Below, piece after piece: positions 50,654-64,000 of a stretch of 64,000 nucleotides of DNA. The stretch is taken from assembly GCA_017404665.1 (NCBI GenBank), contig JAFRBX010000043.1:34126-98125 (forward strand), in the 5' to 3' direction. How positions within the stretch are numbered: position 1 is the first letter of the stretch; each line of letters starts with the position of its first letter. A program made the position numbers and the translations under genes. Source of the DNA: Ruminococcus sp. (GTDB lineage: Bacteria > Bacillota > Clostridia > Oscillospirales > Acutalibacteraceae). The notes below the pieces were generated by a model. The model was not told the DNA's origin and did not search any database. It saw only the letters and a list, made by a program, of their open reading frames with translations.

Positions 50654-52471
50654 CTACAGCTTCTTATAGTATTCCTCGATATACCTTGCCATCATCCTTC
50701 TGCGTTCGACCAGGAAAGCGTCATAATCGGTATGATCCATGCCGGTGATCCCGGGCGTCAGACAGTTATCCGCAAGGTTTGCCGCGAGATCCTCCGCCGA
50801 TTGAAGGTTTCCTAACTGTATCTCCTTCGTATCGCATTGGGCAGCGATGATGGAAAAATATTCGCACGGAGGACGGTCGCCGATCGCCTTGTTGACCTGC
50901 GTGTCGAGGTAAATATAGTTGGCGACCTGATTGTATTTGATCGGCTTATTGATGCCGTGCTTTTTCAGGTATTCCTTGGGAAAGATGTGGTGGACGTCGG
51001 CAGCGCCGTTCGTTTGGATCAGATCATAAACCTTGGTTCCGCTCATCAGCATCGAATCCGCGCCGCGGTTGATCTGAGCCGCGGTGAATACGTTGAACGC
51101 GGGGGTGGAGGAGGACGAGGACTCCAAATTCTGAGGCAGGGTAACGCTCCAGAAATTATCGGACAGATCGGACGCCTCGACCTCTTCAAAGAATCTCATA
51201 AAGCCCTTTTCCTCGATGCTGTTGATATCCCGACTCATTACCGTTTCGGGAGAGCCGATATAGCGCGAGGTGAGGGTCGTCAGCACAAACCATTTCTGCA
51301 CCAGCCGCTTGATCTGCTCGTTGGGGATGCTCTTGTCCTCCTTGAGCATGAGATAGAGCGCATAGGCAAAGTCGAGCGTCATCTTGGAGTTGAGCAGCTT
51401 TCGCTTGATGAAGCCCGCGCCCTTGATCGCCATCAGGAACTGGGTGAAGTTGTATTGGTTGATGAAGCTGTTGACGCTGTCGGCGAGGGTGCGGTAGGAT
51501 TCCTCGGCGATGGATTCCTTGTATTCCTTCGTTACGAAATCTCTGCCGGACAGCAGGCTGACGAGGTCGGCGAGCCTGCCGCGCTTGAAGCGATGCATGA
51601 ACGATACCCTGAGCATATCGTTGTAGTCGGGGTCATAGATATCTTCATAATCATTAGCCAGCCATTTGATCCGGTCAGCATAGGGAGACTCCCTGAAAGC
51701 TTCGTCGTTGAGCATGGAGGAATAAAACTCCGGCTTGACTGCAAGGTGGCAGAAGTAATCCACCGTCTTGCGCAGCATATTGCCGCCGAAGCGTTCGTCG
51801 GACGCCATTTTGGACATGACAAAGTCCGATTGGCTGAGCACGGTGCCTTTCGAGTTGATGCGAATGAATATCTCGGTGACCTCGTCCATATCGAGATCGT
51901 GATCCAGCTCGATCACGCCGATCTGGCGGTGTTCGATTTCCTTGAGACCGAGGATCGCCGCGTTGACGTCACGGGGGTCCGTGCCCGGGTTATCCTCGCA
52001 GTACTGCAGCGTGAAGCTGAAGGCGTCAAAGCTCGGGTCGAAAAGCACGGAGATATCGGGGATCCAGCGCTTGTCCTTCAGATGAGAGGCATCCTGAACA
52101 GCGAACCTTTTTGTCTTGTCCGCTTCCAGCGGATGATAGGCAACCTTGATCCGGACCTTGGTGAAGTCCTGATCCAGCACCTCCCTGCCGAGCAGTGCCG
52201 CCATCAAGGCGGTGACGCGCTGCTGACCGTCGATCAGCACCTCGTTTCCGTTGGCGGTTCTGCCGTCTTTGGTTTTGATATCCGGATTCTTCCATGTGAT
52301 GATGTAGCCGGTGGGATAGCCGTTGAACAGCGAGTCGATCAGATCCTTGACCTGCACCCTTTTCCAGACAAAGGGCCGCTGGATCTCGGGGATGACGAAT
52401 TTTCCCGCATCGATCATGCCTAAGATGGATTTGATCGAAAGCTGCTTGAGCTCAAATTGCTGTCCTTTCAT
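50654..52471 (-). CDS. DUF262 (GmrSD-like) protein with C-terminal HNH nuclease motif
   Basis: This 605-residue cytosolic protein has an N-terminal DUF262 ParB-like domain with IPEIQRPFVWKRVQVKDLIDSLFNGYPTG and the nucleotide-binding motif LIDGQQRVTALMAAL (about 80-94). FIRINSKGTVLSQSDFVMSKM follows at about 212-232. The C-terminal domain has ADVHHIFPKEYLKKHG, the HH core of an HNH nuclease. This is the architecture of type IV-like modification-dependent restriction systems of the GmrS/GmrD group, in which an NTPase and an HNH nuclease act on modified phage DNA. It is a single gene next to the CRISPR locus, so part of a defence region. The target modification is unknown. Confidence 0.87.
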   Translation of the reverse strand: MKGQQFELKQLSIKSILGMIDAGKFVIPEIQRPFVWKRVQVKDLIDSLFNGYPTGYIITWKNPDIKTKDGRTANGNEVLIDGQQRVTALMAALLGREVLDQDFTKVRIKVAYHPLEADKTKRFAVQDASHLKDKRWIPDISVLFDPSFDAFSFTLQYCEDNPGTDPRDVNAAILGLKEIEHRQIGVIELDHDLDMDEVTEIFIRINSKGTVLSQSDFVMSKMASDERFGGNMLRKTVDYFCHLAVKPEFYSSMLNDEAFRESPYADRIKWLANDYEDIYDPDYNDMLRVSFMHRFKRGRLADLVSLLSGRDFVTKEYKESIAEESYRTLADSVNSFINQYNFTQFLMAIKGAGFIKRKLLNSKMTLDFAYALYLMLKEDKSIPNEQIKRLVQKWFVLTTLTSRYIGSPETVMSRDINSIEEKGFMRFFEEVEASDLSDNFWSVTLPQNLESSSSSTPAFNVFTAAQINRGADSMLMSGTKVYDLIQTNGAADVHHIFPKEYLKKHGINKPIKYNQVANYIYLDTQVNKAIGDRPPCEYFSIIAAQCDTKEIQLGNLQSAEDLAANLADNCLTPGITGMDHTDYDAFLVERRRMMARYIEEYYKKL

Positions 52472-52730
52472 GCCGACCTCCTTTTTGTACCTTTATGCAG
52501 AATTGCTTTGCGTCAATTATAATACGCGAGACAACAAAAATCAATCGCTCTCTCAAAATCCGTCACGCCGTTTTCAGCTCCTATGAAGACAACGGGATTA
52601 TTGCAATTATGATAGAGCGTAGAAAGCGCAAACTATTGGGGTATTTTGAGTACCGCCCTTCTCAATTGGAAGGTTCGGGGACAAACCATTTAGTTACACC
52701 GTAAAGATTGCGAATAATCTTCGAAAGGAA

Positions 52731-52760
52731 TTGACAAATGCGATAATGATGTGGTAAAAT
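52731..52760 (+). promoter_or_regulatory. Promoter of the 52819 gene
   Basis: TTGACA (52731-52736), 18-nt spacer, TAAAAT (52755-52760). No other signal was found in 52472-52730. Confidence 0.68.
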
Positions 52761-52818
52761 AGCATCATATCATTAGAACATATAAGCGAATGATTGTTTT
52801 GAAAAAGAGGTGTTTTTA

Positions 52819-53376
52819 ATGACAGAATTGGAGATTATCGCCAGAGCGCAGATGTACTTAGAAAAGCTTGCTAACGGGGTGAATCCCCTGACCGGTGAAG
52901 AGGTGGGGGAGACCGACGTCGTCAACAACGTGAGGATATCGCGCTGTCTGTTTTACTCTGCGGGGATACTGAAGCAGATCGTGGATAACAAAGGGAGGTT
53001 CAAGGTTCAGATGCCCGAGAGAAAGCCTTTTGCAATCACCTCCGAACAGCTCGCGCGGTTCGAGTACGCCGAATACGGCATTTCGATCACGGAGATTGTC
53101 AAGCGCATCAACGCGCTGATTGATACTGTTCACATAAATGAGCTGAAATCAAAAGCTGTTTTAGAATGGTTGGTCGAGGCGGGGCTGCTCACTAATATCG
53201 TAGTAAATAACAAAACGCGCCGCAGACCGACTGCGCAGGGTGATTCGATGGGCATCTTCACCGAGGAGAGAAGCGGTCAGTACGGGATGTACGAGGGTGT
53301 GTTCTACAGTAATAAGGCGCAGCGTTTTATCATCGATAACATTGGTGCAATCATTGCATTTGAAAACAGAGAATAA
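52819..53376 (+). CDS. Conserved protein of unknown function, winged-helix-like centre
   Basis: This 185-residue protein is not one I can assign to a named family. It begins MTELEIIARAQMYLEKLANGVNPLTGEEV with VVNNVRISRCLFYSAGIL soon after. The middle (ITEIVKRINALI...LKSKAVLEWLVEAGLLTNI) looks like a winged-helix or helical DNA-binding element. The C-terminus is basic then aromatic (RRRPTAQGDSMGIFTEER). ATG 52819 lies 8 nt after AGAGG; GTG 52810 in the same frame overlaps that site. It has its own promoter and sits in the defence-like region. Confidence 0.7.
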   Translation: MTELEIIARAQMYLEKLANGVNPLTGEEVGETDVVNNVRISRCLFYSAGILKQIVDNKGRFKVQMPERKPFAITSEQLARFEYAEYGISITEIVKRINALIDTVHINELKSKAVLEWLVEAGLLTNIVVNNKTRRRPTAQGDSMGIFTEERSGQYGMYEGVFYSNKAQRFIIDNIGAIIAFENRE

Positions 53377-53414
53377 CCGGATTATGGTGTTTTGATGTAA
53401 ACGGTTTGTCTGCG

Positions 53415-53927
53415 TTATGTCAGCAATCTGAATCTCCACGAGATATCTCCGCCTGTATATTGGTGCAGCGGAGCATGCATCACAGACCTTGATTCCTTTA
53501 ACTTTCCCGTGTTTGTATCGTATATCCTTAATCTGTTGTTATACACAAAGGTCAGAACGGTATCATCAAGGAAAACCTTTTTCAGTCCGGGGTTAATCAG
53601 GTTTAGATTTTCAAAAGGCTGAAGTTCTCCCAAGAATTTCCAGTTATCGTTGATGAGCTTGAATAGGATTATTCCCGACAGATATCCTTTTGTAACAGCA
53701 AAAAGATATCTGTCGTTTTCATTGAAGAACGCGTAGCTGACGTCGGAGGTTACGCGTTGTATAAGTGAAACTCGGTCGTCACAATATTTGATGATGATCC
53801 GCTTGCTTTGGCGCAAGGCTGCCCATTTGCCGTCGGAGGAAAGACAGAGAGTGGATATCTTCACAGATTTCTTTTCCTTTGGCGGCTTTGGCGGAGCAGG
53901 CGGTGTTATCGCTTTGGCGACGTTACA
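53415..53927 (-). pseudogene. WD40-like repeat protein fragment, 5' truncated
   Basis: The frame on the minus strand opens after a stop near 53930 and has no good start before ATG 53864. It encodes a Pro-rich stretch (ITPPAPPKPPKEKKS) and then beta-propeller-like blades (LCLSSDGKWAALRQ, NENDRYLFAVTKGY, FVYNNRLRIYDTNTGKL). The lack of ribosome-binding site and short length (149 codons from the first ATG) suggest the C-terminal remnant of a WD40-like protein. Confidence 0.55.
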
Positions 53928-54075
53928 ATGAATACTGTTTCAAAAAAAGGCAGGATAGTATGAAAAACAGATGACATCTTCCGAAATATATGATATAATC
54001 ACTATATAAACAGAGTGATAGAGTATGGATTAGACTCTTTCAAAGAATACGATGAAAAAGCTGAAAGTAATACAG

Positions 54076-54426
54076 ATGAATATTGCAGTAGCGGTACCGG
54101 TTACGTCGGTTTGTCAATCGCAGTGCTTCTCTCACAGCACAACGCCGTCAAGGCGGCGGATATCATTCCGGGAAAGGTGGAGTGATCAGCAGCAGACGAT
54201 CGCCCATTTAGGATGATGATATCGAACAGTACCCGCCTCACAAGGAACTGGATCCGGAGGCGACGCTTGACGCCGAATGCGCCTACAGGGATGCTGACTT
54301 CGTCGGATCGCCGCGCCGACTCATTATGACAGTTGTTTGGATGACGTTAAGGATAAGGTGTACACCGGAGATTTATTCAGAAGAGATCAGATAAAAGCAG
54401 CGAACACATACGGAGGGACGGCATGA
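54076..54426 (+). pseudogene. ugd: Decayed UDP-glucose 6-dehydrogenase (ugd) remnant
   Basis: In shifting frames the DNA spells the start of a UDP-glucose dehydrogenase: MNIAVA, then after one lost base GTGYVGLSIAVLLSQHN and ADIIPGKVE. After another lost base come SSRRSPI, an in-frame TAG, and DDDIEQYPPHKELDPEATL and DAECAYRDADFV. The catalytic middle is deleted, and the frame then gives the enzyme's C-terminus, CLDDVKDKVYTGDLFRRD. At least two frameshifts, one nonsense codon and a large deletion make it nonfunctional. It probably came from a polysaccharide locus, like the fragment at 55224. Confidence 0.8.
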
Positions 54427-55223
54427 AAGGATGGATGAGAATAATCGCTTGCCTTGCGGCGATATTCCTGCTGCTTGCGGGCTTTCCGTGCGCGGCGTCA
54501 GACGGCTTTTATTGCACATACACGCCGAAAACCGAAAACAGCTCCGTATTCTATATCGATGTCTACAGCTCCGCTCAGGTGAGTGCGGCGGTGCTGGAAT
54601 TGTACTTTGACGACAGCTTTGCGGAGTATCGCGAGACGAGCGCTGTCGTGAGCACCTCTGTCGTGCGCGATACCTGTGAAAACGGCTGTGTGAAGCTCGC
54701 CTTTGCCGACAGCGGCGTCGTGACGGGTCAGCTGTTTCGCGCGGCTTTCAAGGCGCTACAGGCGGGAACCGTTACCTTCACGCTGCGCGTTACACAGGCG
54801 GCTGACGCACAGCCGATGCTGCTCAGCGGCTTTGCCGATTATTCTTTGGAAGTGAAGCTCGGGAAGAATGACGTAATATCCGGCTCTTCAGCAAAGGTAT
54901 CTTCAAAAGTGTCAACCGCGTCCTCCAAGTCAGAGAAAAGCGCGTCCGGTTCGCGCTCGTATCTCAGAGAGGTATCGGGCTCAGACGAGGAAGGCTCGCC
55001 GATAGAAGGCGGCGTCATCGACGTGCGCCGCAATTACGCGTGGACCTATGTGCTGATTGGGATCGGGGCAGTTCTGCTGGTGGCTGCTTTGATATTCGCG
55101 GGCGTTTTGATCGGGAGAAAGAATACCGGCAAGGATATTAATCAGGCATCAAAAGATACGGAATCAGCGGATGACTATTCCGCTGAAGGAGCCGCTGATA
55201 CCGACAGCGACGAAGGAACGTAA
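54423..55223 (+). CDS. Membrane-anchored protein with a cohesin-like domain
   Basis: This 266-residue exported protein has a signal peptide (MIRIIACLAAIFLLLAGFPCAA-like, about 1-25) and a ~120-residue beta domain with AAVLELYFDDSFAEYRE, CVKLAFADSG, GQLFRAAFKALQAGTVTFTLRV. This strand order is typical of cohesins (LxYDxxx..., FAxxxG, LFxxxFKxxxxGxxxI). A Ser/Lys linker, one membrane helix (VLIGIGAVLLVAALIFAGVLIG) and a short acidic cytosolic tail follow. It could display one cohesin at the cell surface to hold dockerin proteins such as those at 4-16 kb. The cohesin call is inferred from pattern, not proven. It begins at the last codon of the ugd remnant (ATGA). Confidence 0.68.
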   Translation: MKGWMRIIACLAAIFLLLAGFPCAASDGFYCTYTPKTENSSVFYIDVYSSAQVSAAVLELYFDDSFAEYRETSAVVSTSVVRDTCENGCVKLAFADSGVVTGQLFRAAFKALQAGTVTFTLRVTQAADAQPMLLSGFADYSLEVKLGKNDVISGSSAKVSSKVSTASSKSEKSASGSRSYLREVSGSDEEGSPIEGGVIDVRRNYAWTYVLIGIGAVLLVAALIFAGVLIGRKNTGKDINQASKDTESADDYSAEGAADTDSDEGT

Positions 55224-55619
55224 TTGAAAACAATCGCCGCGGAGCAGACTCCCTCGGTCACGGTGACTTATGATAACGCCGATGAGGAAACGGCAGAGCA
55301 ATTACTGGATCTGGTTTTCGGCTTCGGTAATTTCGGGCGTAAAAAACCGGATGACACCAGCCCGATGAGCAGTATTTCGATGGAAATCTCCCGATACGGG
55401 ATGTTCCGCTATTTGCAGACGATGGGCGAGAGCACGTGGAAAGCGTATCATAAGCATCGTTTTCTGAAGCCGTTCGCGTGGCTGTATCAAATCTTTCGCT
55501 TTGCGAAAAGAGGGATTGTTGCTCTGTTGATCGGCGACAAAAAGCAGGTGGGTACAGCGCAGGCAAAGGAAAGATTCAATTTATATAAGAAGCTGGATAT
55601 CAACTATTATCAAAAGTAA
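55224..55619 (+). pseudogene. C-terminal fragment of a nucleotidyltransferase-family protein
   Basis: These 131 codons from TTG 55224, directly after the cohesin-like gene, have no signal or catalytic motif. The sequence LLDLVFGFGNFGRK...YGMFRYLQTMGESTWKAYHKHRFLKPFAWLYQIFRFAKRG matches the ends of polysaccharide-locus nucleotidyltransferase proteins (NTP_transf_5 type), whose N-terminal catalytic domain is missing here. With the ugd remnant it marks a dismantled capsule or exopolysaccharide cluster. Confidence 0.6.
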
Positions 55620-55725
55620 ACGTGCTGGTATAACAGGTCGTTGACCTATTTGCTTTCTATCACGCAAATGGTATTTGTTCCTTGCGGACAGTGTAACGAC
55701 GGAGTCTGGAAAGCGCAAGCTGTGG

Positions 55726-55752
55726 GAGCGGTATTTCAGGTACCGCTCTTTT
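55726..55752 (+). terminator. Rho-independent terminator
   Basis: GAGCGGTA/TACCGCTC stem with TTTT, after the nucleotidyltransferase fragment. A lone TGTCGAA (55839-55845) precedes TATAAT (55854-55859), but no rightward gene follows. Confidence 0.75.
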
Positions 55753-55872
55753 CGATTTATATTTTTGCTGTGGATCATCACGTGAACGCCTTTTGTTCAA
55801 TATATACGAAAAGGCGTTCACATGTTTGTTAACATAGCTGTCGAATAATCTGGTATAATATGGAAAAACAGG

Positions 55873-56238
55873 TTAATAGTATTTGTTATATATATAATTG
55901 GTGAAAAAATCCCAGTCTTCATCGGTGATCCGGCATTCCTTGGCGACTCTCAACGCGTTTTTCGCGTAATCGTTGCTGCAGACATAACCGATGATGTCAT
56001 CCGGGGTATCCTCATGGTATTTTTGCTGAGCGGCAAGATACAGCATTGTGTCGGTATCTCTGCTGTCCAGATGCAGTACCTCGGAGATTTTCAGCAGCAA
56101 TTCCCGCTTCGGCGGGTTACGCTTCCCGGATTCAAAGTAGGAGACATATACCGGAGAGAGCCCGAGCAGAGCGGCGAAGCTTCTTTGCGACATCATTTTT
56201 TCTTCCCTTTTCGCTTTGATGAAGTCTCCGAATGTCAT
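55873..56238 (-). CDS. XRE-family helix-turn-helix regulator
   Basis: This 121-residue DNA-binding protein has an N-terminal HTH (MTFGDFIKAKREEKMMSQRSFAALLGLSPVYVSYFESGKRNPPKRELLLKI), with Q, S and Y/E residues at the usual recognition positions. A short C-terminal helical region (DTDTMLYLAAQQ...CRITDEDWDFFTNYI) follows. The start at 56238 is chosen because GGGGTGAG precedes it; further upstream codons in frame lack a ribosome-binding site. It diverges from the response-regulator gene and may act on the shared 56239-56441 region. No ligand domain is seen. Confidence 0.88.
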   Translation of the reverse strand: MTFGDFIKAKREEKMMSQRSFAALLGLSPVYVSYFESGKRNPPKRELLLKISEVLHLDSRDTDTMLYLAAQQKYHEDTPDDIIGYVCSNDYAKNALRVAKECRITDEDWDFFTNYIYNKYY

Positions 56239-56367
56239 ATTTCTCACCCCATTTTTCCAATATATACCTATTATATTGGTTAACTTTTGGGGCGAATAAA
56301 CCATTTTTGTCTTGTATCTGACAGGGATTAGCTGACGGATTGGCTGAAAATTTTAGTTTTTTATCTG

Positions 56368-56423
56368 TTTTTGTCGGTTTTTGTCTGCTTCCGGGTTGAA
56401 TTTGTCGGGAATATCTTTATAAT
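56368..56423 (+). promoter_or_regulatory. Promoter of the response-regulator gene with TTTGTCGG repeats
   Basis: TTGAAT (56396-56401), 16-nt spacer, TATAAT (56418-56423). Just upstream are direct repeats TTTTTGTCGG and TTTTTGTCTG, with TTTGTCGG again at 56401. These resemble half of a Spo0A box (TTTGTCGAA) and could be autoregulatory sites; this is inference. Confidence 0.6.
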
Positions 56424-56441
56424 GACAAGTGGGTGATAAAA

Positions 56442-57221
56442 ATGGAAATGAAAAAGAGCTTTATCGTTGTCGAGGATGAAGAATATATTTGCAAGCAATA
56501 TCGCTCTCAGGTCAAGGAACACGAGAATCTTTACTTGATCGATACCACCAACAACGCTCCGGACGCCGTCAAGCTGGTACGGGAGTTTTCACCGGACGCC
56601 GTCGTATTGGATATCGAGCTGAACCAAGGCAACGGCGACGGGTTTTCGTTCTTGGACGCTGTCAGGGAGACCTGCGTCGAAAATAAGCCGCTGATCATTG
56701 TGGTTACCAATCTCATTTCATCGTATATACATAAGCGCATCCATGAAAAGGGCGGCGATTATATCATCACCAAATCTAAGCCCGATTACAGCGTAAAACT
56801 GGTGCTGAATACGATCGACACGTTGGTTGCGGCTTCATCACTTGACAAAAGCCGCCAAGCCGAGCTGGCAAAAGTCATGGCGAAGCAGGAGTATGCCATG
56901 CGGCTGAAGAAAAAGATCGCAGCTGAAATGAATTTGATCGGCATGAAGCCGAGTCTGAAGGGTACGGGCTACATCAAGGACGCGATCGAAATGAATGTGG
57001 AAAAACGCAGGAACAATACCAAAGAGCTGTTGGCTGAAAAATACTCCGTCACCGCGGACAGTGTTGAAAAAGCCATGCGTCACGCGATTGAAGTGACATG
57101 GAAAAACGATCCTGATATCCTGTTTTTATACTATAAGGCGCCCATCGACCTTCGCCGCGGCGCACCGTCGCCAACCGAGTTTGTATTCTATTACGTCGAC
57201 AAAATCAAAAGAGAATTGTGA
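56442..57221 (+). CDS. Response regulator with Spo0A-type DNA-binding domain
   Basis: This 259-residue two-component regulator has an N-terminal receiver with the acidic pair E11-D12, probable phosphoacceptor D57 (AVVLDIEL), a conserved Thr (VVTNL) and Lys (TKSKPD). The C-terminal domain is of the Spo0A family: MNLIGMKPSLKGTGYIKDAI...LLAEKYSVTADSVEKAMRHAIEVTW, matching the Spo0A recognition region, although the usual Ser-Arg before Val-Glu is Asp-Ser here. The divergent receiver, the local kinase and the peptide gene suggest a dedicated regulator, not the master sporulation Spo0A. Likely partner: the GHKL kinase at 57634. ATG 56442 follows GGGTGA; ATG 56448 is an alternative. Confidence 0.87.
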   Translation: MEMKKSFIVVEDEEYICKQYRSQVKEHENLYLIDTTNNAPDAVKLVREFSPDAVVLDIELNQGNGDGFSFLDAVRETCVENKPLIIVVTNLISSYIHKRIHEKGGDYIITKSKPDYSVKLVLNTIDTLVAASSLDKSRQAELAKVMAKQEYAMRLKKKIAAEMNLIGMKPSLKGTGYIKDAIEMNVEKRRNNTKELLAEKYSVTADSVEKAMRHAIEVTWKNDPDILFLYYKAPIDLRRGAPSPTEFVFYYVDKIKREL

Positions 57222-57252
57222 TTAAACCGGAATCATTCCCTCACATACAACA

Positions 57253-57289
57253 AGGAGCTGTCGCTGTCCGATGCGATAGCTCCGTTTTT
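57253..57289 (+). terminator. Rho-independent terminator of the response-regulator gene
   Basis: GGAGCT-GTCGC / GCGAT-AGCTCC stem, then GTTTTTTATTTT. It separates the regulator from the peptide gene. A short GATCTCAACCCGATCGATAAAA (57357-57378) recalls the MITE-like repeats. Confidence 0.85.
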
Positions 57290-57441
57290 TATTTTAGTGA
57301 CCGGCTTTTTTAGGGGAGGGGCTAGCTCCTCCTGCCGTAAGGCTTTTGTGATACGCGATCTCAACCCGATCGATAAAAACAGACATTAGCCGAGAAAAAA
57401 CGCTCCCATAATTCACTCAGAAATTTTCCCGTTTTCATGTA

Positions 57442-57471
57442 CCTTTGTGTTAAAGAAATATAACACAAAGG
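57442..57471 (+). promoter_or_regulatory. Perfect inverted repeat covering the peptide gene's ribosome-binding site
   Basis: CCTTTGTGTTA (57442-57452), 8-nt spacer, TAACACAAAGG (57461-57471). The right arm includes the first part of the AAAGGAGGG Shine-Dalgarno (57467-57475). It could be an RNA hairpin that hides the start region or a DNA operator bound by a dimer. Confidence 0.75.
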
Positions 57472-57481
57472 AGGGAAGATC

Positions 57482-57529
57482 GTGAGCTTGTGGGATTATA
57501 TCTGGTGGTTCTTTTCACATGGTTATTAA
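57482..57529 (+). CDS. Candidate signal peptide gene, 15 residues, Trp-rich
   Basis: GTG 57482 lies 6 nt after the near-perfect Shine-Dalgarno AAAGGAGGG. The product reads MSLWDYIWWFFSHGY, hydrophobic with three Trp, and is directly followed by its own strong terminator, so a whole transcription unit serves 15 codons. It lies just upstream of an AgrC-like sensor kinase and downstream of a Spo0A-type regulator. No processing enzyme (AgrB-like or RiPP enzyme) is adjacent. It may be an extracellular pheromone, a small membrane peptide acting on the kinase, or a leader peptide. The ribosome-binding site and terminator are seen directly; the signalling role is inference. Confidence 0.6.
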   Translation: MSLWDYIWWFFSHGY

Positions 57530-57540
57530 TCTTTTAGAAG

Positions 57541-57582
57541 AAAGAGATTGGCTCATATTTAGTCAATCTCTTTATTTTTTTT
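57541..57582 (+). terminator. Rho-independent terminator of the peptide gene
   Basis: AAAGAGATTGGCT/AGTCAATCTCTTT stem (13 bp with one G-U) with a CATATTT loop, then ATTTTTTTT. Confidence 0.92.
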
Positions 57583-57633
57583 GTTTTTATGATATAATAT
57601 ATCTAAAAACAAAGGAGATAAGAGAAATGCCTT

Positions 57634-59103
57634 ATGGAAGACTATTTATCTAATTCTTGGCTTTATTTTTTGGATAGAGTTATTGTTCTGTTCACGACTT
57701 ATTTGTGTTCCATTCTGATATTTGTCAGATGTATGGACGTAAAGCTGAATGTGCGTAATAGCGTATTCTTTGTTCTAGCTAATCTGATTATTCCAATTGT
57801 ATGTCAGTTATTGGGAGGAGTAAATAATGCTTATATCAAGCTAGGGTTTCTCCTTTTGATGATTTGTTCTTTAGTTATTGTTGTCAGAAAGAAAAAGTAT
57901 TCCGCGATTCCGGGAGCTATTATTTCTGTTGCTGTTTCACTGTGTACAGTATATATAAGTTTATTTCTTACTTGCGTTGTATTGTATTATTTTAATAATA
58001 CGCAAGGCAAAATAATAACTACAGTTATTTCTTGTCTTTTACAGTTGATTATATGTGTTGTAGTTTCGAGTATAAAAACAATAAAAAGAGGGTTTGGTTA
58101 TTTCTCTCAAGTTAATAATTTTGGATTAGGATTACTAGTATCGAGCTATATTTTTACCTTTTGTTTTTTGCTGACTAGAGCTGGCGAATTGGGAACATTA
58201 AGAGGCTTACTGCTATTTGCAATATGTCCATTAGCGTTTACCGGTCTTATCCTCTGGATCCGCAGTATCGTACAGCGTTATTATAAAAACAAACTGCAGG
58301 ATCGCGCCAATGAATACACCAAACAGGAGATAGAGGACAAGGACAAGCGTATCGAGCGGCTGGAGGCTGAGGTATCGACGCTGGCGAAGCAGCTTCACCG
58401 GGACAATCATCTGATGGCGTCCTTAGATCGTTCCGTGCAGGCGATTGCCGAATGCGATTCTGAAGAACAGCGGAGTCAGATCATCACAGAGGTACATACG
58501 CTGTGCCGCGAGCGCAGCGAGCTGCTCGCTAAGGAACAGCAGCAGAACAAAATACTTCCTTCGACCGGAATCGCGCTGATCGACAGTTCTCTGAGCGAAT
58601 TGTATGTGAAAGCCGCGGCGCGCGGGATCAGCTTCGATCTGACGGTGACTGAAGAGCTGTATTATCTGGTCAACAACATTATCAGTCAAACCGATTTGCA
58701 GACGCTGCTGTGCGATCATATCAAGGACGCGATTATCGCCGTTGAATCTGCGGGCGTTAACGATGGCAGGATCCTAGTATCCATCGAAAAGAACGACGGT
58801 ATCTTTGAGATCGCCGTCCGCGATAACGGCGTGGATTATGCAGCCGGCACGCTCTCGAAGCTCGGGAGGGAACAGGTGACCACGCACGCCGATGACGGCG
58901 GCTCCGGCATCGGCTTTATGACGACGTTCGAAACGCTTCGCAAAACGAAGGGCAGCCTGATCATCACGGAGTATGAGCAAAAGACGCCGTTCTCCAAGTC
59001 TGTGGCATTCGTGTTTGACGGCTTGAACCGATTCATCATTTCAACCTACCGCAGGGATGAACTCGAAAAGATCATCGATCGGGATGATGTATCGATCATG
59101 TAA
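57634..59103 (+). CDS. AgrC-like GHKL sensor histidine kinase
   Basis: This 489-residue membrane kinase has about six N-terminal membrane helices (about 10-215), a coiled-coil linker (about 220-255: EIEDKDKRIERLEAEVSTLAKQL), a phosphoacceptor region LHRDNHLMASL resembling the RHD.NNH box of the HPK10/AgrC group, and a GHKL ATPase. The ATPase has an N-box LLCDHIKDAIIAVE (an unusual C-D-H where L.DNAI is typical), G1 VRDNGVDYAAG and G2 GGSGIGFMTTFE. The membrane half is AT-rich and the catalytic half GC-richer. AAAGGAGA (57611-57618) is nearer a tiny overlapping frame (ATG 57627, MPYGRLFI) than ATG 57634. Probable partners are the peptide at 57482 and the regulator at 56442. Confidence 0.86.
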   Translation: MEDYLSNSWLYFLDRVIVLFTTYLCSILIFVRCMDVKLNVRNSVFFVLANLIIPIVCQLLGGVNNAYIKLGFLLLMICSLVIVVRKKKYSAIPGAIISVAVSLCTVYISLFLTCVVLYYFNNTQGKIITTVISCLLQLIICVVVSSIKTIKRGFGYFSQVNNFGLGLLVSSYIFTFCFLLTRAGELGTLRGLLLFAICPLAFTGLILWIRSIVQRYYKNKLQDRANEYTKQEIEDKDKRIERLEAEVSTLAKQLHRDNHLMASLDRSVQAIAECDSEEQRSQIITEVHTLCRERSELLAKEQQQNKILPSTGIALIDSSLSELYVKAAARGISFDLTVTEELYYLVNNIISQTDLQTLLCDHIKDAIIAVESAGVNDGRILVSIEKNDGIFEIAVRDNGVDYAAGTLSKLGREQVTTHADDGGSGIGFMTTFETLRKTKGSLIITEYEQKTPFSKSVAFVFDGLNRFIISTYRRDELEKIIDRDDVSIM

Positions 59104-59180
59104 TGAAACGTATTCGGTAAAGTCGAGCATTACGATCCGCATCGACGCATGATGTGACCAAATCAAAATAGCGATGTTGA

Positions 59181-59230
59181 AACGCACAGTCTTGTCGGAT
59201 GAAACCGGCGGTGAGGCTGTGCGTTTTTCT
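59181..59230 (+). terminator. Rho-independent terminator of the kinase gene
   Basis: AACGCACAG/CTGTGCGTT stem with a ~27-nt loop and TTTTCTTT tail. Confidence 0.75.
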
Positions 59231-59297
59231 TTGACTGCGCTGCAAAAGTATGTAAACAGGTTTGTTTATGATTTACGGTGCGTTGTTTACAAAATGG

Positions 59298-59353
59298 TTC
59301 GACAATATTCTACATAAGAGCATATTTATCTGTATTATCATACAAGGTATAAT
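59298..59353 (+). promoter_or_regulatory. Promoter with paired Spo0A-box-like sites
   Basis: TTCGACA (59298-59304) and TTCTACA (59308-59314) are spaced one helical turn apart. TTCGACA is the complement of TGTCGAA, the Spo0A box core. TATAAT lies at 59348-59353, 40 nt from the second site. The same arrangement occurs at 62604-62659. Confidence 0.72.
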
Positions 59354-59379
59354 ACCGGAATGACAGTTCATGACAGAAA

Positions 59380-59438
59380 AAATCCTTCGCTACGCTACAA
59401 TCATCCTGAGGTGATGATGTATTGCGCACGAAGGATTT
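59380..59438 (+). promoter_or_regulatory. Nested inverted repeats over the start of the 59422 gene
   Basis: Outer arms AAATCCTTCG (59380-59389) and CGAAGGATTT (59429-59438) are perfect. Inner arms ATCATC and GATGAT enclose CTGAGGT, part of the Shine-Dalgarno. An RNA fold here would hide the ribosome-binding site and the TTG start. Confidence 0.55.
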
Positions 59439-59616
59439 ACTGTTATTGATGGACTCAGACAAATGGTCAAACGCCGCCTGTAAGGGATATGCCATCAAAG
59501 CGAGTCAGGCGCTGGGGTATTCCGATGAACAGACAGCGGAGCTTCTTTCGGTGATGGATATCATGTTTTCGACGTACACCGTGGAGGAGGCTGAGAGTTT
59601 TTATCGGGAGTACTGA
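59422..59616 (+). CDS. Small conserved protein, 64 residues
   Basis: TTG 59422 follows GAGGTGATG. The product reads MRTKDLLLLMDSDKWSNAAC, then KGYAIKASQALGYSDEQTAELLSVM and ends STYTVEEAESFYREY. Short proteins with MDSDKWSNAACxGYA and EEAExxY recur in Clostridia, but their role is unknown to me; they are soluble and helical. The gene has a promoter with Spo0A-box-like sites and a structured leader, so it looks regulated. It is convergent with the TIR gene. Confidence 0.65.
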   Translation: MRTKDLLLLMDSDKWSNAACKGYAIKASQALGYSDEQTAELLSVMDIMFSTYTVEEAESFYREY

Positions 59617-59703
59617 GGCGCCGGATATGCTTTTTATTGGAAGGGACACGGTGAGAACCCGCTGGTCAAGCCATATGGTGTATTGATAGTTACGGCTTGC
59701 CGG

Positions 59704-62181
59704 TTACGGAAGATCGTTCAGCAGGCTTTTGATGTGATTGTACATTTCCGCAATGGCGCTGTTATCGGGATACCTCAGAGTAAGACCTGTGTAGATCTGA
59801 AGGGAGCCCTCCAAATAATTCCTGTCGATGCAGTCAGGCTTTGCAGTAGCCCTGTTGTACAGCGCGTTGCCGAATCTCTGATATCCCGCTGTATCCTCAG
59901 GGTCGATCATCTCCGACAGCTCAAACAGCAGCTCCGTATTCTCTTTTTCCGCCCTTTCTTCCGCAACCGTGTTTCCTATCAGGCTGCTGAGCATGATCAG
60001 CTCCGTCAGAGCGTCGACAAGCATAAAGCAGACGTCCTGCAGGATCTCTTTTTCGTCATCTGTCGTGGCGTTTTTATTTGCGTCGAGCGCGTTTTTGAGC
60101 TTTTTCAGGGATTCTATATAATCCTGAACACACATGATCTGTTTGGTGCAGTTCATGAAGTATTCGCTGTCATCGAGGCTTTCGACTTGTGCTTTCAGGC
60201 AGGAAAGCTCTGCACGGTACGCAAGGGCGAGCTTGTACATATCATTGTATGAGCCGGTGATATCGGTGACTTCCTGAAGTGTTTCCTCTGATCTTTTGAA
60301 ATAGCGGAGAGCTGCATCGACGTTCTTTTGAGCCAGCTCAAATTCCCCCAAGTATCGACAGCATACGCCCACATCACGCAGATCATCGGCGCGCTTCAAT
60401 TCCGTGTACAGATCTTCACGCAGCTGCAGGCTTTCCAGATAATACCTTTGAATGAGCTGAATGGTTTCAGGCTCCTGCGAACAATATGTGAGCAGTAATT
60501 CCGCATATTTTACCAGGATTACCGCCAGATCTCTGCGCGCCTCAAATTCAAAGACGTCGCCTTTCTTCAAGTCAAGGTATGCCTGTCGGCGGAGCTCCAG
60601 ACATTTTTGATAGGCTCCGTTTGCATAGCGGAAGAATTCATAAAACTTTTGTTCATTTTGATCTGCTTGTGCCAGCGGGATCACCTTTCTCATCACATCG
60701 CCCAACTGGAGGTACGCGGCGGCGAGAGCGCGCCGGTATATGATAAAGTCGTCAGAACCCTTATCCGCGTTTTCATAAAGTCGATCGCGTATGTCGATCA
60801 CCTTGCCGAGATGATCGATAGAAGCCTGATATTGTCCGAGATTCATCTCTGCCTGAGCCATGCCCATCAGCCCGGCGGAATAGACCTTTTGCTCCTCATC
60901 GCTTTCGGGCGTCGGAAAAAGTTCGGTGAACTTTTTGAAATAGGTCAATGCACGGGAGTAATGACCGTTCATCAGCAGCTCGTTTCCCAGAGTCAGGGTC
61001 GTTTCTAAATACAGATTAAGGTAACGGTCGATTGTAGAATCGGTGTTCTGAGATGGATCGCTGAGCTTCTTTTCCAGCAGTTCGACCGCGACCATTTGCA
61101 TATCCATCGATTTTTCGTGATCGCGTTCGATCCCTTGTCCTTCTCTGAACATGACGGAGAGTCGCATAGCTGCTTCCGGCAAACCCATCTTTGCAGCCTG
61201 CATGATCGCGACAAAAGCAAATTGAGGATCGTATTCCACGTATCTCATATACAGATAGGCAAGCCCGGTATAATAGCAATGCTCGGCAGTTTTGCTCTGG
61301 TTCGGTGTGATGTGCTTTTTCAGTTCTTCCGTCAGCCTTTCTTTGTCTGAGAAAGGAATGATGTTGTTGAGACCTTCAAACTGCTTTTGTACCTCACAAA
61401 GATCGCAATCCTCCATCGCCGCGGCGATCACGGGCAGATTCTTCTTTACCGCATAAGGATACTCATGGTCTTTCACATAGTTATCTTCACACAGCAGCTT
61501 GTCGGTAATGCAGAGCAAAAAGACGCTGCTTCTGTCGATCGCGGAAAAAATATCGGCTTCAAAATCATCGCCGCCTGCGATATATTCGTCGTACCAGATG
61601 CCGACGTCCATCAGAACGGGGTCATTATGGATCGCGCGAAACAGCTTATTGACATATGCGCGGTTCGCCTTGCGATAGCTCAGGAAGACCCTTTCGCTTA
61701 ATTCTTCATCGATCCTATGGAGGGTATCGTCATCGGACATGATGCTGTCAAGATAATCGCCGAGCTTTTTGTCGAAAGGGATCTCTGTCGAATCCGCGCT
61801 TTGCGGATTCAGGAACTGTCTGTTTTCAAAGAGGGTGTTGTACAGCAAAAAATCATGAAGATTTTCCCAAAGGATCGGCAGCACAGGCAACTGATGACGA
61901 TTTGCTTTCTCCAGCATCTCAGCCGCTTCTGCGGCGTTCTCCGTCAGCCTGTTCGTAACGATGAAAACCATCAGAACAAAGCCCTGATCAAGCGTTTCTT
62001 CGAGAGAGGAAGACCGGCTGACGTTGGCAAGCTCGATGTAGGAGATGACGGCGCAGTTTTTCTTATTGAGGAGAAGCTCGGCTGTTTGCCTGTAATACAG
62101 CTCATAGTCTTTTTCCGCCGCGGCGACGACGATCTTCTGCTTGTTGTCGGGATTTCCGTTTTTTACTCGGGTCAAATACAT
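59704..62181 (-). CDS. TIR-domain protein with Sel1/TPR repeats
   Basis: This is an 825-residue cytosolic protein. The N-terminal ~150 residues form an alpha/beta domain (KIVVAAAEKDYELYYRQTAELL, FIVTNRLTENAAEAAEML) of uncertain identity, perhaps a degenerate TIR. A clear TIR domain follows at about 163-260: SERVFLSYRKANRAYV, VGIWYDEYIAGGDDFEADIFSAIDRSSVFLLCIT, NYVKDHEYPYAVK, with E240 a candidate catalytic Glu of NADase-type TIRs. A Sel1-like repeat (AAKMGLPEAAMRLSVMFREGQGIERDHEKS) and many TPRs fill the rest. TIR-TPR proteins act in bacterial immunity or signalling; which applies here is unknown. ATG 62181 is preferred because GGAGG lies 7 nt upstream. Confidence 0.85.
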   Translation of the reverse strand: MYLTRVKNGNPDNKQKIVVAAAEKDYELYYRQTAELLLNKKNCAVISYIELANVSRSSSLEETLDQGFVLMVFIVTNRLTENAAEAAEMLEKANRHQLPVLPILWENLHDFLLYNTLFENRQFLNPQSADSTEIPFDKKLGDYLDSIMSDDDTLHRIDEELSERVFLSYRKANRAYVNKLFRAIHNDPVLMDVGIWYDEYIAGGDDFEADIFSAIDRSSVFLLCITDKLLCEDNYVKDHEYPYAVKKNLPVIAAAMEDCDLCEVQKQFEGLNNIIPFSDKERLTEELKKHITPNQSKTAEHCYYTGLAYLYMRYVEYDPQFAFVAIMQAAKMGLPEAAMRLSVMFREGQGIERDHEKSMDMQMVAVELLEKKLSDPSQNTDSTIDRYLNLYLETTLTLGNELLMNGHYSRALTYFKKFTELFPTPESDEEQKVYSAGLMGMAQAEMNLGQYQASIDHLGKVIDIRDRLYENADKGSDDFIIYRRALAAAYLQLGDVMRKVIPLAQADQNEQKFYEFFRYANGAYQKCLELRRQAYLDLKKGDVFEFEARRDLAVILVKYAELLLTYCSQEPETIQLIQRYYLESLQLREDLYTELKRADDLRDVGVCCRYLGEFELAQKNVDAALRYFKRSEETLQEVTDITGSYNDMYKLALAYRAELSCLKAQVESLDDSEYFMNCTKQIMCVQDYIESLKKLKNALDANKNATTDDEKEILQDVCFMLVDALTELIMLSSLIGNTVAEERAEKENTELLFELSEMIDPEDTAGYQRFGNALYNRATAKPDCIDRNYLEGSLQIYTGLTLRYPDNSAIAEMYNHIKSLLNDLP

Positions 62182-62296
62182 TTCTTTGCCTCCGTTTACC
62201 CTGTAATGAATACAATATATCACAGGTAAAAGGATTTATCAACGATAGCTTGCGGGTTGTCATCATACATGTTTTCAAGCGGCTTATATGAAAAAT

Positions 62297-62319
62297 GCCG
62301 ACTTCCTTCTGAGGTCGGC
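62297..62319. terminator. Hairpin upstream of the TIR gene
   Basis: GCCGAC/GTCGGC stem with T-rich sequence after it; another AAAACCC/GGGGTTTT hairpin lies at 62405-62437. Either could end a transcript. Nothing else is seen in 62224-62600. Confidence 0.4.
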
Positions 62320-62603
62320 TTTCTGCCTATTTTTAAATAGTATATATGCAGCATTTATCCTTATACATTTGTTTTTCTGCATATGAGAAAATTTGATTAA
62401 ACTCCAAAACCCTTTTATGACCAACGCGAGGGGTTTTCGCATTTTATTTGAAAGTATTCATTTTTGCTTATAATCGGAAATCTGAATGAAACATGATCTC
62501 CTTGCGTATTATCACAAATATCATTTTCGGAAATCGATCAGGCTGCTGAAATAATGTGCTAACAGTTTTGTTTAAGAATATTTGTGTATCCGCAACAAAT
62601 CGG

Positions 62604-62659
62604 TTCGACAAAATTCTACAGATGCATGCATTTATTCAGTGAAAGAAAAGGGGTATAAT
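62604..62659 (+). promoter_or_regulatory. Promoter of the DisA_N-like gene with paired Spo0A-box-like sites
   Basis: GG + TTCGACA (62604-62610) + AAA + TTCTACA (62614-62620), then TATAAT at 62654-62659, 40 nt from the second site. The two sites and the spacing copy those at 59298-59353. Confidence 0.72.
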
Positions 62660-62748
62660 AATTGATACGGGAGGAACAAAACGGATTCTGCATTAATTGA
62701 CAAAACAACGCGGGATATTTATAATATGACAAGAGGCAGGTGATAAAT

Positions 62749-63747
62749 ATGAGCGCTTGTTTGCTGGAGAAGGAAATCAGAAAACGCGGCGTTGTTGACA
62801 TGAAGGATATTCCGAAAGACGAATTAGTGAAGGCAACGCAGAGAGTTCTGCATATTTGTCGCCATTTTCCCGATTTTCCGGACATCGACCTGATCATAAA
62901 CCTCTCCGGTCAGTTATATGAGGGAAAGGAATGTTATGCAAACATCATTTTTCTTCCCGTTCAATATGAAAATTACGGTCTTGACTATATCGTCCGGTAT
63001 GCTGAACAAATCGTATTTGAGCCAAGGAATATTCGCTTCATTAGAAAACTGCTCGAATCGGCGGGGCGGGAAAATTATCTGGTGATGAAAGCGATCCGCG
63101 ACGATTATCGTGTGTTCGGCGTGATCTCACAGGAAGCGGCTGAAAGCCTGTTGGCGCTGCGCGTAATGTTTAGCGGGCATATGAGCTGGAAAGCCGCGAT
63201 AAAGGATCAGTATCTTTTTAAATATGAAAACGGCAGCTATCAGCCTGTCAGCGTCGGAGAATTTTCTCAAAAGGACTTTTTGAATAAGCTGCATCAGGCG
63301 TTCGGCGATGAGGTGAAGGAATCGGACGTCGAAACATTATTAAAGATAACAAGAGTCATTACTGGGCTTGGGCACGGGACTTCAATAGTCATCTATTCCG
63401 GAGAAAAGTTTGATTCTGAAATTGAGCGACTGACCCATACCGGCGCCGGACACGGCATCAAGCTGGAGCGTGAGATCGACTTCTCGCTGTGCAATGAGGA
63501 AGAGACAGAACGGCTCCTCAGACCGATCACAAAGATAGACGGAGGTCTTATTCTGGATATCCACGGAAATTGCGGAGCGATAAGCTGTGTGTTTGACGGG
63601 ACCATTCCCGAGGGATATGAGCAGGGCACCGGCAGCAGGGGATCTCGCTATAACAGCTTGGTTCTGTACATAACAACGCTGCATGCAAAAGCGCTCGGCG
63701 TTGTGGTGTCAGATGACGGATCGGTCGACTATATTACCAATACATAG
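62749..63747 (+). CDS. DisA_N/DAC-like nucleotide-binding domain protein
   Basis: This 332-residue soluble protein has an N-terminal ~190 residues I cannot assign, followed by a DAC-like (diadenylate cyclase fold) domain. HGTSIVIYSGEKFDSEIERL fits the first DAC strand and helix. DGGLILDIHGNCGAISCVFDG (from about 264) aligns with the DGA motif, and GTGSRGSRYNSLVLYI (about 293-308) aligns with the GTRHR region, followed by VVVSDDGSVDYI. DGG for DGA and SRGSRYN for RHR mean cyclase activity is uncertain. Families of DAC-like sensors (DACNV type) in conflict systems are an alternative. ATG 62749 follows GAGGCAGG. Confidence 0.75.
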   Translation: MSACLLEKEIRKRGVVDMKDIPKDELVKATQRVLHICRHFPDFPDIDLIINLSGQLYEGKECYANIIFLPVQYENYGLDYIVRYAEQIVFEPRNIRFIRKLLESAGRENYLVMKAIRDDYRVFGVISQEAAESLLALRVMFSGHMSWKAAIKDQYLFKYENGSYQPVSVGEFSQKDFLNKLHQAFGDEVKESDVETLLKITRVITGLGHGTSIVIYSGEKFDSEIERLTHTGAGHGIKLEREIDFSLCNEEETERLLRPITKIDGGLILDIHGNCGAISCVFDGTIPEGYEQGTGSRGSRYNSLVLYITTLHAKALGVVVSDDGSVDYITNT

Positions 63748-63938
63748 TATGGCTAAACGGCGTTCAGACGGTAATAATATTGATGTGGCGCAGATGATGT
63801 GGCGCATATGTGCAGCAGTTTGTTGCTCAGTTTGTTGATCTATAAAAAACGTTAAATCCACACGTCAATCTAATTCTGTCATAAAGATGTAACCACCATT
63901 ACAGCCCATATATGGTATAACATAGATGGGTGGTCAAA

Positions 63939-64000
63939 ATGGATGGATTAGAAAGATTACAAGAACATTTGGCGACATTGGAACAAGAAACGGAACACAA
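63939..64000 (+). CDS. Start of an unidentified gene, cut by the window edge
   Basis: ATG 63939 follows GATGGGTGG and opens MDGLERLQEHLATLEQETEH, still open at the right edge. It is helical and charged; too little is present to identify it. TATAAC at about 63914 is a possible -10. The stretch 63748-63938 holds an imperfect ACCACCAT/ATGGGTGGT inverted repeat and nothing else seen. Confidence 0.45.
   Translation, partial: MDGLERLQEHLATLEQETEH

Follow-up and report, generated by a model that had tools for sequence, protein, structure and literature searches.

We analysed a 64,000-nucleotide stretch of a Ruminococcus sp. genome (GenBank assembly GCA_017404665.1, contig JAFRBX010000043.1, positions 34,126 to 98,125 of the forward strand; hereafter 'the window'), concentrating on positions 56368-59103, for which a first-pass annotation made from the letters alone had proposed a compact peptide-sensing module. 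Judging from the comparison with related genomes, a response regulator, a Trp-rich peptide gene and a membrane kinase form a conserved unit, in which the peptide appears to vary together with the sensor half of the kinase. In our view the peptide probably serves the adjacent kinase as a leaderless pheromone, and the kinase would feed a Spo0A-type regulator that reinforces its own transcription and that of the peptide gene.

Conservation of the regulator, peptide and kinase genes

The peptide gene (57482-57529, plus strand) starts with GTG, comprises 15 codons and encodes VSLWDYIWWFFSHGY. It is preceded by a Shine-Dalgarno sequence (AAAGGAGG, 57467-57474) and followed by an intrinsic terminator (57541-57583, plus strand), read as AAAGAGATTG ... 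CAATCTCTTT and then a T-run, so the ribosome-binding site and terminator described by the first-pass annotation are indeed in place. Frames upstream of relatives' kinases include MSWWEYLLWFLNRNH, MSWWEYLKWLLGLGY and MSWWEYILWILGGGRG, all of them behind a strong Shine-Dalgarno sequence.

Named genomes were scanned for relatives of the kinase and the best 80 of 214 were considered, most of them from metagenome-assembled genomes and with predicted peptide starts. The regulator was found directly upstream of the kinase in 71 of these loci. By our rule, a peptide gene is an 11-20-residue frame with a Shine-Dalgarno sequence that contains one Trp or more and no fewer than three aromatic residues. 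Between regulator and kinase, 65 gaps measured 100 bp or longer, and 61 of them held such a frame, whereas the other intergenic regions of these loci gave 4 in 294. In 50 rounds of dinucleotide shuffling the mean was 1.56 of 65 gaps (maximum 4). Four gaps failed the rule (L088, L093, L095 and L112), and a looser one gives candidates in L088, L095 and L112. Because the rule was set after part of the data had been seen, it was applied unchanged to 18 loci fetched later. Two of these duplicated earlier loci. Twelve others have a regulator as well as a gap of 100 bp or more, and in 10 of them the gap contained a frame, that of L204 being doubtful. The remaining later loci lack either the gap (L202) or the regulator (L208, L209 and L210), yet in L210 a peptide, MSFWEWILYILR, is present all the same; matches outside the gaps numbered three in L202 and one each in L208 and L211. 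The first-pass annotation had called for such a search for the same gene order, and the result in the gaps is the opposite of what it had named as grounds for refutation, namely homologous loci that keep kinase and regulator and never a short frame between them.

The peptides of 67 listed loci, whose starts were picked by eye and for some of which alternatives exist (L096, L106, L113), are 11-18 residues long. Trp makes up 19.6% of the residues after the first, net charge lies between -1 and +1 in 51 of the 67, and Cys occurs in five, leaving 62 without it, the window peptide included. The hydrophobic moment is highest at 100 degrees per residue (0.449 vs 0.230 +/- 0.013 in shuffled peptides, maximum 0.269), suggesting that short amphipathic helices are the common design of the family. 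The gene runs antisense to the kinase in 10 of the 67 loci, and likewise in L040 and L042. Some loci carry variant arrangements: two kinases stand behind one peptide in L046 (3269-6440), two different peptide genes ahead of one kinase in L117 (238-591), and one regulator is followed in L200 (G802:C1, 4124-10953) by three consecutive, related kinase genes, two of them flagged with in-frame stops and the gap holding one antisense peptide candidate.

The regulator gene (56442-57221, plus strand) encodes a receiver and a Spo0A_C output domain, both over the Pfam cut-off (Response_reg E 1.8e-11, Spo0A_C E 1.5e-17), which bears out the Spo0A-type assignment made earlier, and its D57 is invariant among 13 sequences. 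With the Spo0A equivalog model TIGR02875 it scores 112.3 bits, below the cut-off of 200, and a second Spo0A_C protein on a different contig of the same genome is stronger (155.9 bits vs 64.6 for the window regulator), arguing that the window regulator is a Spo0A paralogue.

The kinase gene (57634-59103, plus strand) encodes a membrane histidine kinase with a variable sensor (approximately residues 1-215) and a conserved catalytic part; an alignment of 16 kinases shows no variation at H255, D397 and G399 and next to none in the GGSGIG region. The earlier description as a six-helix GHKL kinase of AgrC type holds as far as a membrane kinase with conserved catalytic residues is concerned. A hydropathy scan suggests seven hydrophobic segments rather than six (5-7 in seven relatives shown), and both domain scores fall below their cut-offs (HATPase_c 20.9 bits vs a curated 26.4; GHKL, HATPase_c_5, 19 vs 22). 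A profile search of the PDB with the kinase retrieved KinB and ZraS chains and no AgrC, so that, together with the low GHKL score and with no AgrB over the cut-off in the genome, membership of the AgrC family is unsupported. An 8-codon frame (MPYGRLFI, 57628-57654) with a Shine-Dalgarno sequence begins 6 bp ahead of the kinase gene and extends into it, possibly providing translational coupling.

Counted by kinase profile, with regulator and peptide checked in the named loci only, carriers numbered 30 of 161 genus genomes, the own genome included, 11 of 295 genomes at order level, 10 of 391 at class level and 1 of 398 in the phylum sample; among the first 100 genus genomes there were 20 with a match, again including the own genome. 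With regard to a mobile origin, the window kinase had no tblastn match in plasmid or phage collections.

Co-variation of peptide and sensor

The comparison of closely related loci shows where the module varies. Between L052 and L056, compared in 60-bp windows, the XRE-type gene beside the module and the regulator are 92-100% identical, and identity stays at 88-97% up to the peptide promoter, leaving aside an insertion of ~300 bp in L052. The stretch that begins with the peptide gene and extends to roughly kinase codon 230 is 47-77% identical, after which the remaining kinase is back at 83-100%. This profile was seen in six close pairs, the present one included, in which DNA identity is 90-99% for the regulator, 56-80% for the peptide, 51-64% for the sensor and 87-98% for the catalytic half. 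In that order of parts, the values are 97, 71, 51 and 92% for L052/L056; 99, 80, 62 and 98% for L085/L097, the next 300 bp being 97% identical; 93, 77, 58 and 90% for L086/L090; 92, 56, 59 and 87% for L099/L114; 93, 64, 54 and 92% for L049/L057; and 90, 67, 64 and 88% for L087/L115. A variable block of signal plus sensor in a constant background is the appearance of the agr, comQXPA and ComCDE pherotypes, and the six pairs have, at the level of DNA identity, the pattern of a pherotype swap. Other pairs differ: in L094/L080 the sensor falls to 59% though the peptides are similar (84%), L070/L121 are similar throughout (sensor 76%, peptide 83%), and the window and L044 share 79% in the regulator, 77% in the peptide, 56% in the sensor and 83% in the catalytic half.

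For a statistical test we kept 62 of the 67 peptide loci, those with a kinase longer than 440 aa and a regulator longer than 200 aa. In a clade of nine (L078, L085, L086, L090, L092, L097, L099, L110 and L114), two types of peptide coincide with two groups of sensor irrespective of the regulator or the catalytic half, with sensor identities of 0.56-0.63 and 0.40-0.48 within the groups and 0.30-0.39 between them. Peptide and sensor are correlated there (r 0.78, reached by 3 of 5000 permutations; partial r 0.81, 2 of 5000), with r values of -0.09 for peptide and catalytic half and -0.16 for peptide and regulator. In a clade of 26, selected on catalytic identity to L070, the partial r is 0.30 for the sensor (0 of 1000 permutations) and a weaker 0.15 for the catalytic half (42 of 1000).

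Promoter elements and neighbouring genes

Ahead of the regulator gene lies an array of 10-bp direct repeats with GACAAAAACN units (56356-56395, minus strand), putative regulator sites resembling 0A boxes, and the same array is found in L044 and L045. Its score of 25/27, the best place in the 64-kb window, is circular since the repeat unit was read from that array. Another such array stands upstream of the peptide promoter (57372-57401, plus strand), where L044 and L045 score 24 (joint top) and 23. The 10-bp spacing is that of tandem 0A boxes, and the region of the regulator's recognition helix, SVEKAMRHAIEVTW, resembles SRVERAIRHAIEVAW of the genome's own Spo0A.

The peptide promoter itself combines, on the plus strand, an extended -10 element (TG-TACCTT, 57438-57445) with an overlapping perfect 11-bp inverted repeat (57442-57471) that runs into the Shine-Dalgarno sequence. 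A stem score of at least 9 was found in 12 of 16 loci, against 14 of 3200 shuffles. The repeat may act as an RNA hairpin or as an operator, the overlap with the extended -10 making an RNA switch and a DNA operator indistinguishable. A hairpin over the Shine-Dalgarno sequence, looked for and seen in Ruminococcus-type loci and L061, was rejected as a core feature.

Tandem boxes of the TTCGACA type are enriched in the 67 regions upstream of the peptide genes (9.04 vs 8.09 +/- 0.09). Across the 80 loci the strict tandem form occurs only at five peptide promoters, and in five of eight whole genomes the clade form of the box is the sole such site and stands at the peptide promoter, the other three genomes having none. 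In the window, the box TTCGACA-N3-TTCTACA occurs on the plus strand at 59298-59314 and at 62604-62620, in each case starting 50 bp before a TATAAT (59348-59353 and 62654-62659), and marks two putative target promoters, one ahead of a 64-aa frame (59422-59616) and one ahead of a gene for a DACNH-domain protein (62740-63747). These are the two promoters that the first-pass annotation had named, and GGTTCGACAANATTCTACA is found there at 59296 and 62602 (0.04 occurrences expected in the window). Elsewhere in the 2.47-Mb genome TTCGACAANATTCTACA is never matched exactly, and with two mismatches it is matched three times. Among 10 genus genomes searched, TTCGACANNNTTCKACA has two sites in G000, two in G082 (one of them on C12) and none in the other eight, so that either the box sequence drifts or the targets differ. 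A second element, AACAGNTTTGTTTANGANT, lies upstream of both boxes (exact at 59255-59273 and 62561-62579), was recognised by eye in the G082 locus described below, and is possibly the site of a second regulator.

Some of the genes behind these boxes bring defence systems to mind. The DACNH protein is over the cut-off for that domain and matches an anti-phage family below the cut-off, at 128 of 630 bits. In G082 a box with the same box/-10 layout as in the window (L159, G082:C3:8000-27500; box at 11199-11215, minus strand) lies ~6.5 kb downstream of the kinase and stands ahead of three genes that match no Pfam family, one of them weakly like an RT-nitrilase defence model; behind them, after a gap of ~540 bp, comes a complete Wadjet set (JetABCD), and JetD is followed by a 67% homologue of the 64-aa frame seen in the window. 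We regard the defence link as a lead from two genomes and not as a result. Between the two box promoters of the window, a gene on the minus strand (59704-62223) encodes a protein with TIR and TPR domains and a weak ThsB-like match, and is possibly a defence gene.

Around the module, a TATAAT at 57593-57598 (plus strand), read by eye, is likely the kinase gene's own -10. Divergent from the regulator, an XRE-type helix-turn-helix gene (55873-56238, minus strand) encodes a protein of 121 aa with a helix-turn-helix match only (HTH_3, E 1.9e-12); 14 of 66 loci have a homologue in the same divergent position, and we rejected the gene as a core part, taking it for accessory and lineage-limited. Upstream of the cassette is a gene for a secreted-looking protein (54423-55223), with a 49%-identical match near the L025 cassette. 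No Rfam family matched in 52000-64000 and no tRNA was found in 40000-64000.

Proposed mechanism and relation to known systems

In the mechanism that we favour, a 15-residue, Trp-rich amphipathic peptide would be made from its own regulated promoter and leave the cell without a leader or known exporter. It would be the ligand of the adjacent kinase, recognised by the variable multi-helix half, and the kinase would set the phosphorylation of the Spo0A-type regulator. The regulator would in turn bind the Spo0A-box-like repeats, spaced 10 bp, at its own promoter and at that of the peptide gene, closing a feedback loop, and also a few targets. The conservation of the unit, the helical amphipathicity, the pherotype-like co-variation and the repeat arrays at promoters can be read from the sequences themselves; translation and secretion of the peptide, its binding by the kinase and the switching of the regulator are what we infer. 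The use of the module is most likely cell-cell communication within a pherotype.

Several observations weigh against this reading. No signal peptide, exporter or protease for the peptide was identified among the neighbours scanned. Two later loci, L207 and L216, have a gap and no frame by our rule, and in six of the 71 loci (L058, L059, L060, L065, L108 and L123), perhaps receivers without a signal, the two genes abut and a frame of this kind is missing between them. The clade of nine was selected after the list of pairs had been seen. In 13 Ruminococcus-type loci the partial correlation with the sensor is 0.08 and not significant (1444 of 5000 permutations), and over all 62 loci that with the sensor (0.147, 9 of 2000) is below that with the catalytic half (0.232, 0 of 2000). 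The array at 57372-57401 scores 21/27 and is the third-best place in the window, only one above a background of 20 at the best unrelated place, and the window's own peptide promoter lacks a recognisable TTCGACA tandem box (8/12).

The main rival is that the peptide stays in the cell as a small membrane-surface regulator, binding the membrane half of the kinase from inside and tuning it, as small-protein partners do with some other kinases. Trp-rich amphipathic helices suit a membrane surface, co-variation with the sensor demands contact only and not export, and no leader, exporter or processing enzyme was recognised next door; this reading offers, however, no obvious reason for the repeated exchange of peptide-plus-sensor types between near-identical backgrounds, which is typical of signals between cells, and we think it unlikely. 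The same short, amphipathic and Trp-rich composition would also suit a membrane-active or bacteriocin-like agent, with the kinase-regulator pair as a sensor or immunity switch, but typical antimicrobial peptides are cationic, unlike these with their mostly near-neutral charge, and no dedicated exporter or immunity gene was recognised among the scanned neighbours, making such a role quite improbable.

Two further explanations concern the frame rather than the peptide. A short frame that contains Trp codons and is followed, ahead of the kinase, by a terminator recalls a leader peptide, i.e. a transcription attenuator linking tryptophan supply to kinase expression. Such an attenuator cannot be general, because 10 of the 67 peptide genes are antisense to the kinase, and we rejected it as a general explanation; the non-Trp positions and the helical periodicity are conserved as well, and a -10 that apparently belongs to the kinase gene follows the terminator, all of which leaves attenuation very improbable. 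Fifteen codons alone prove nothing, and yet a chance open reading frame, rejected on the conservation in both sets of gaps against controls and shuffles, is the explanation to which we give least credence.

It is conceivable, if doubtful as a whole, that the leaderless pheromone module represents an undescribed quorum-sensing family of Clostridia, with Trp-rich helical pheromones, a dedicated membrane kinase, a Spo0A-type regulator and pherotypes exchanged between species, which in the window's lineage would also control anti-phage or anti-plasmid genes. The defence part rests on the boxes before the window's DACNH gene and, in G082, before the three unknown genes and then Wadjet. If the pheromone reading is true, a leaderless and apparently unprocessed signal with a membrane kinase as its receptor would make an unusually simple circuit, present in several clostridial groups and offering many natural signal-receptor pairs for work on specificity. 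Should the defence link hold, density-controlled immunity would be directly testable in Ruminococcus.

A published description of such an arrangement was not found in titles and abstracts, preprints and most subscription journals lying outside the search. In the accessible part of a review of two-component quorum sensing, six families are named and Spo0A is not among them. The leaderless communication peptides of Rgg/RopB systems are similar in that a very short, leaderless and hydrophobic peptide adjoins a presumed receptor gene. According to the accessible text of PMC13361665, in which the terms 'histidine kinase', 'two-component', 'Ruminococcus' and 'Spo0A' do not occur, those peptides have 8-10 residues and bind cytosolic Rgg regulators. 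The peptides described here differ in their 11-18 residues and in facing a membrane kinase in place of a cytosolic Rgg-type receptor; the neighbouring XRE-type protein, with 121 aa and a helix-turn-helix match alone, does not qualify as one. With Spo0A the module shares the output domain, the recognition-helix region and the box-like sites, which are candidates by sequence, but the regulator is a separate gene with an adjacent kinase and scores below the Spo0A equivalog cut-off.

Closer parallels are found in agr and comQXPA. Like agr, the module has a peptide gene beside a polytopic membrane kinase and a response regulator, with linked polymorphism of signal and sensor half in a constant background, the linkage losing significance in the 13 Ruminococcus-type loci after partialling. 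The mismatch with agr that the first-pass annotation had pointed out is seen in the output domain, which is Spo0A_C instead of the LytTR of AgrA, and in the AgrB protease, the single match to which (PF04647) in the own genome reaches 13 bits against a cut-off of 23. The window peptide and most others also lack the Cys of an AgrD-type precursor, and the kinase, below the GHKL cut-off, may or may not be of AgrC type. Its statement that no processing enzyme is next door agrees with our scan, in which none was recognised among the neighbours. The comQXPA system is characterised by a Trp-containing peptide, a membrane kinase and pherotype blocks, all of which have a counterpart here; the regulator, however, is not of the ComA type, and no ComQ-type prenyl transferase was seen among seven neighbouring proteins, the only ones that this search covered. 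To judge by its parts, the module would work like agr or comQXPA, yet within the scope of these searches it lacks defining components of both.

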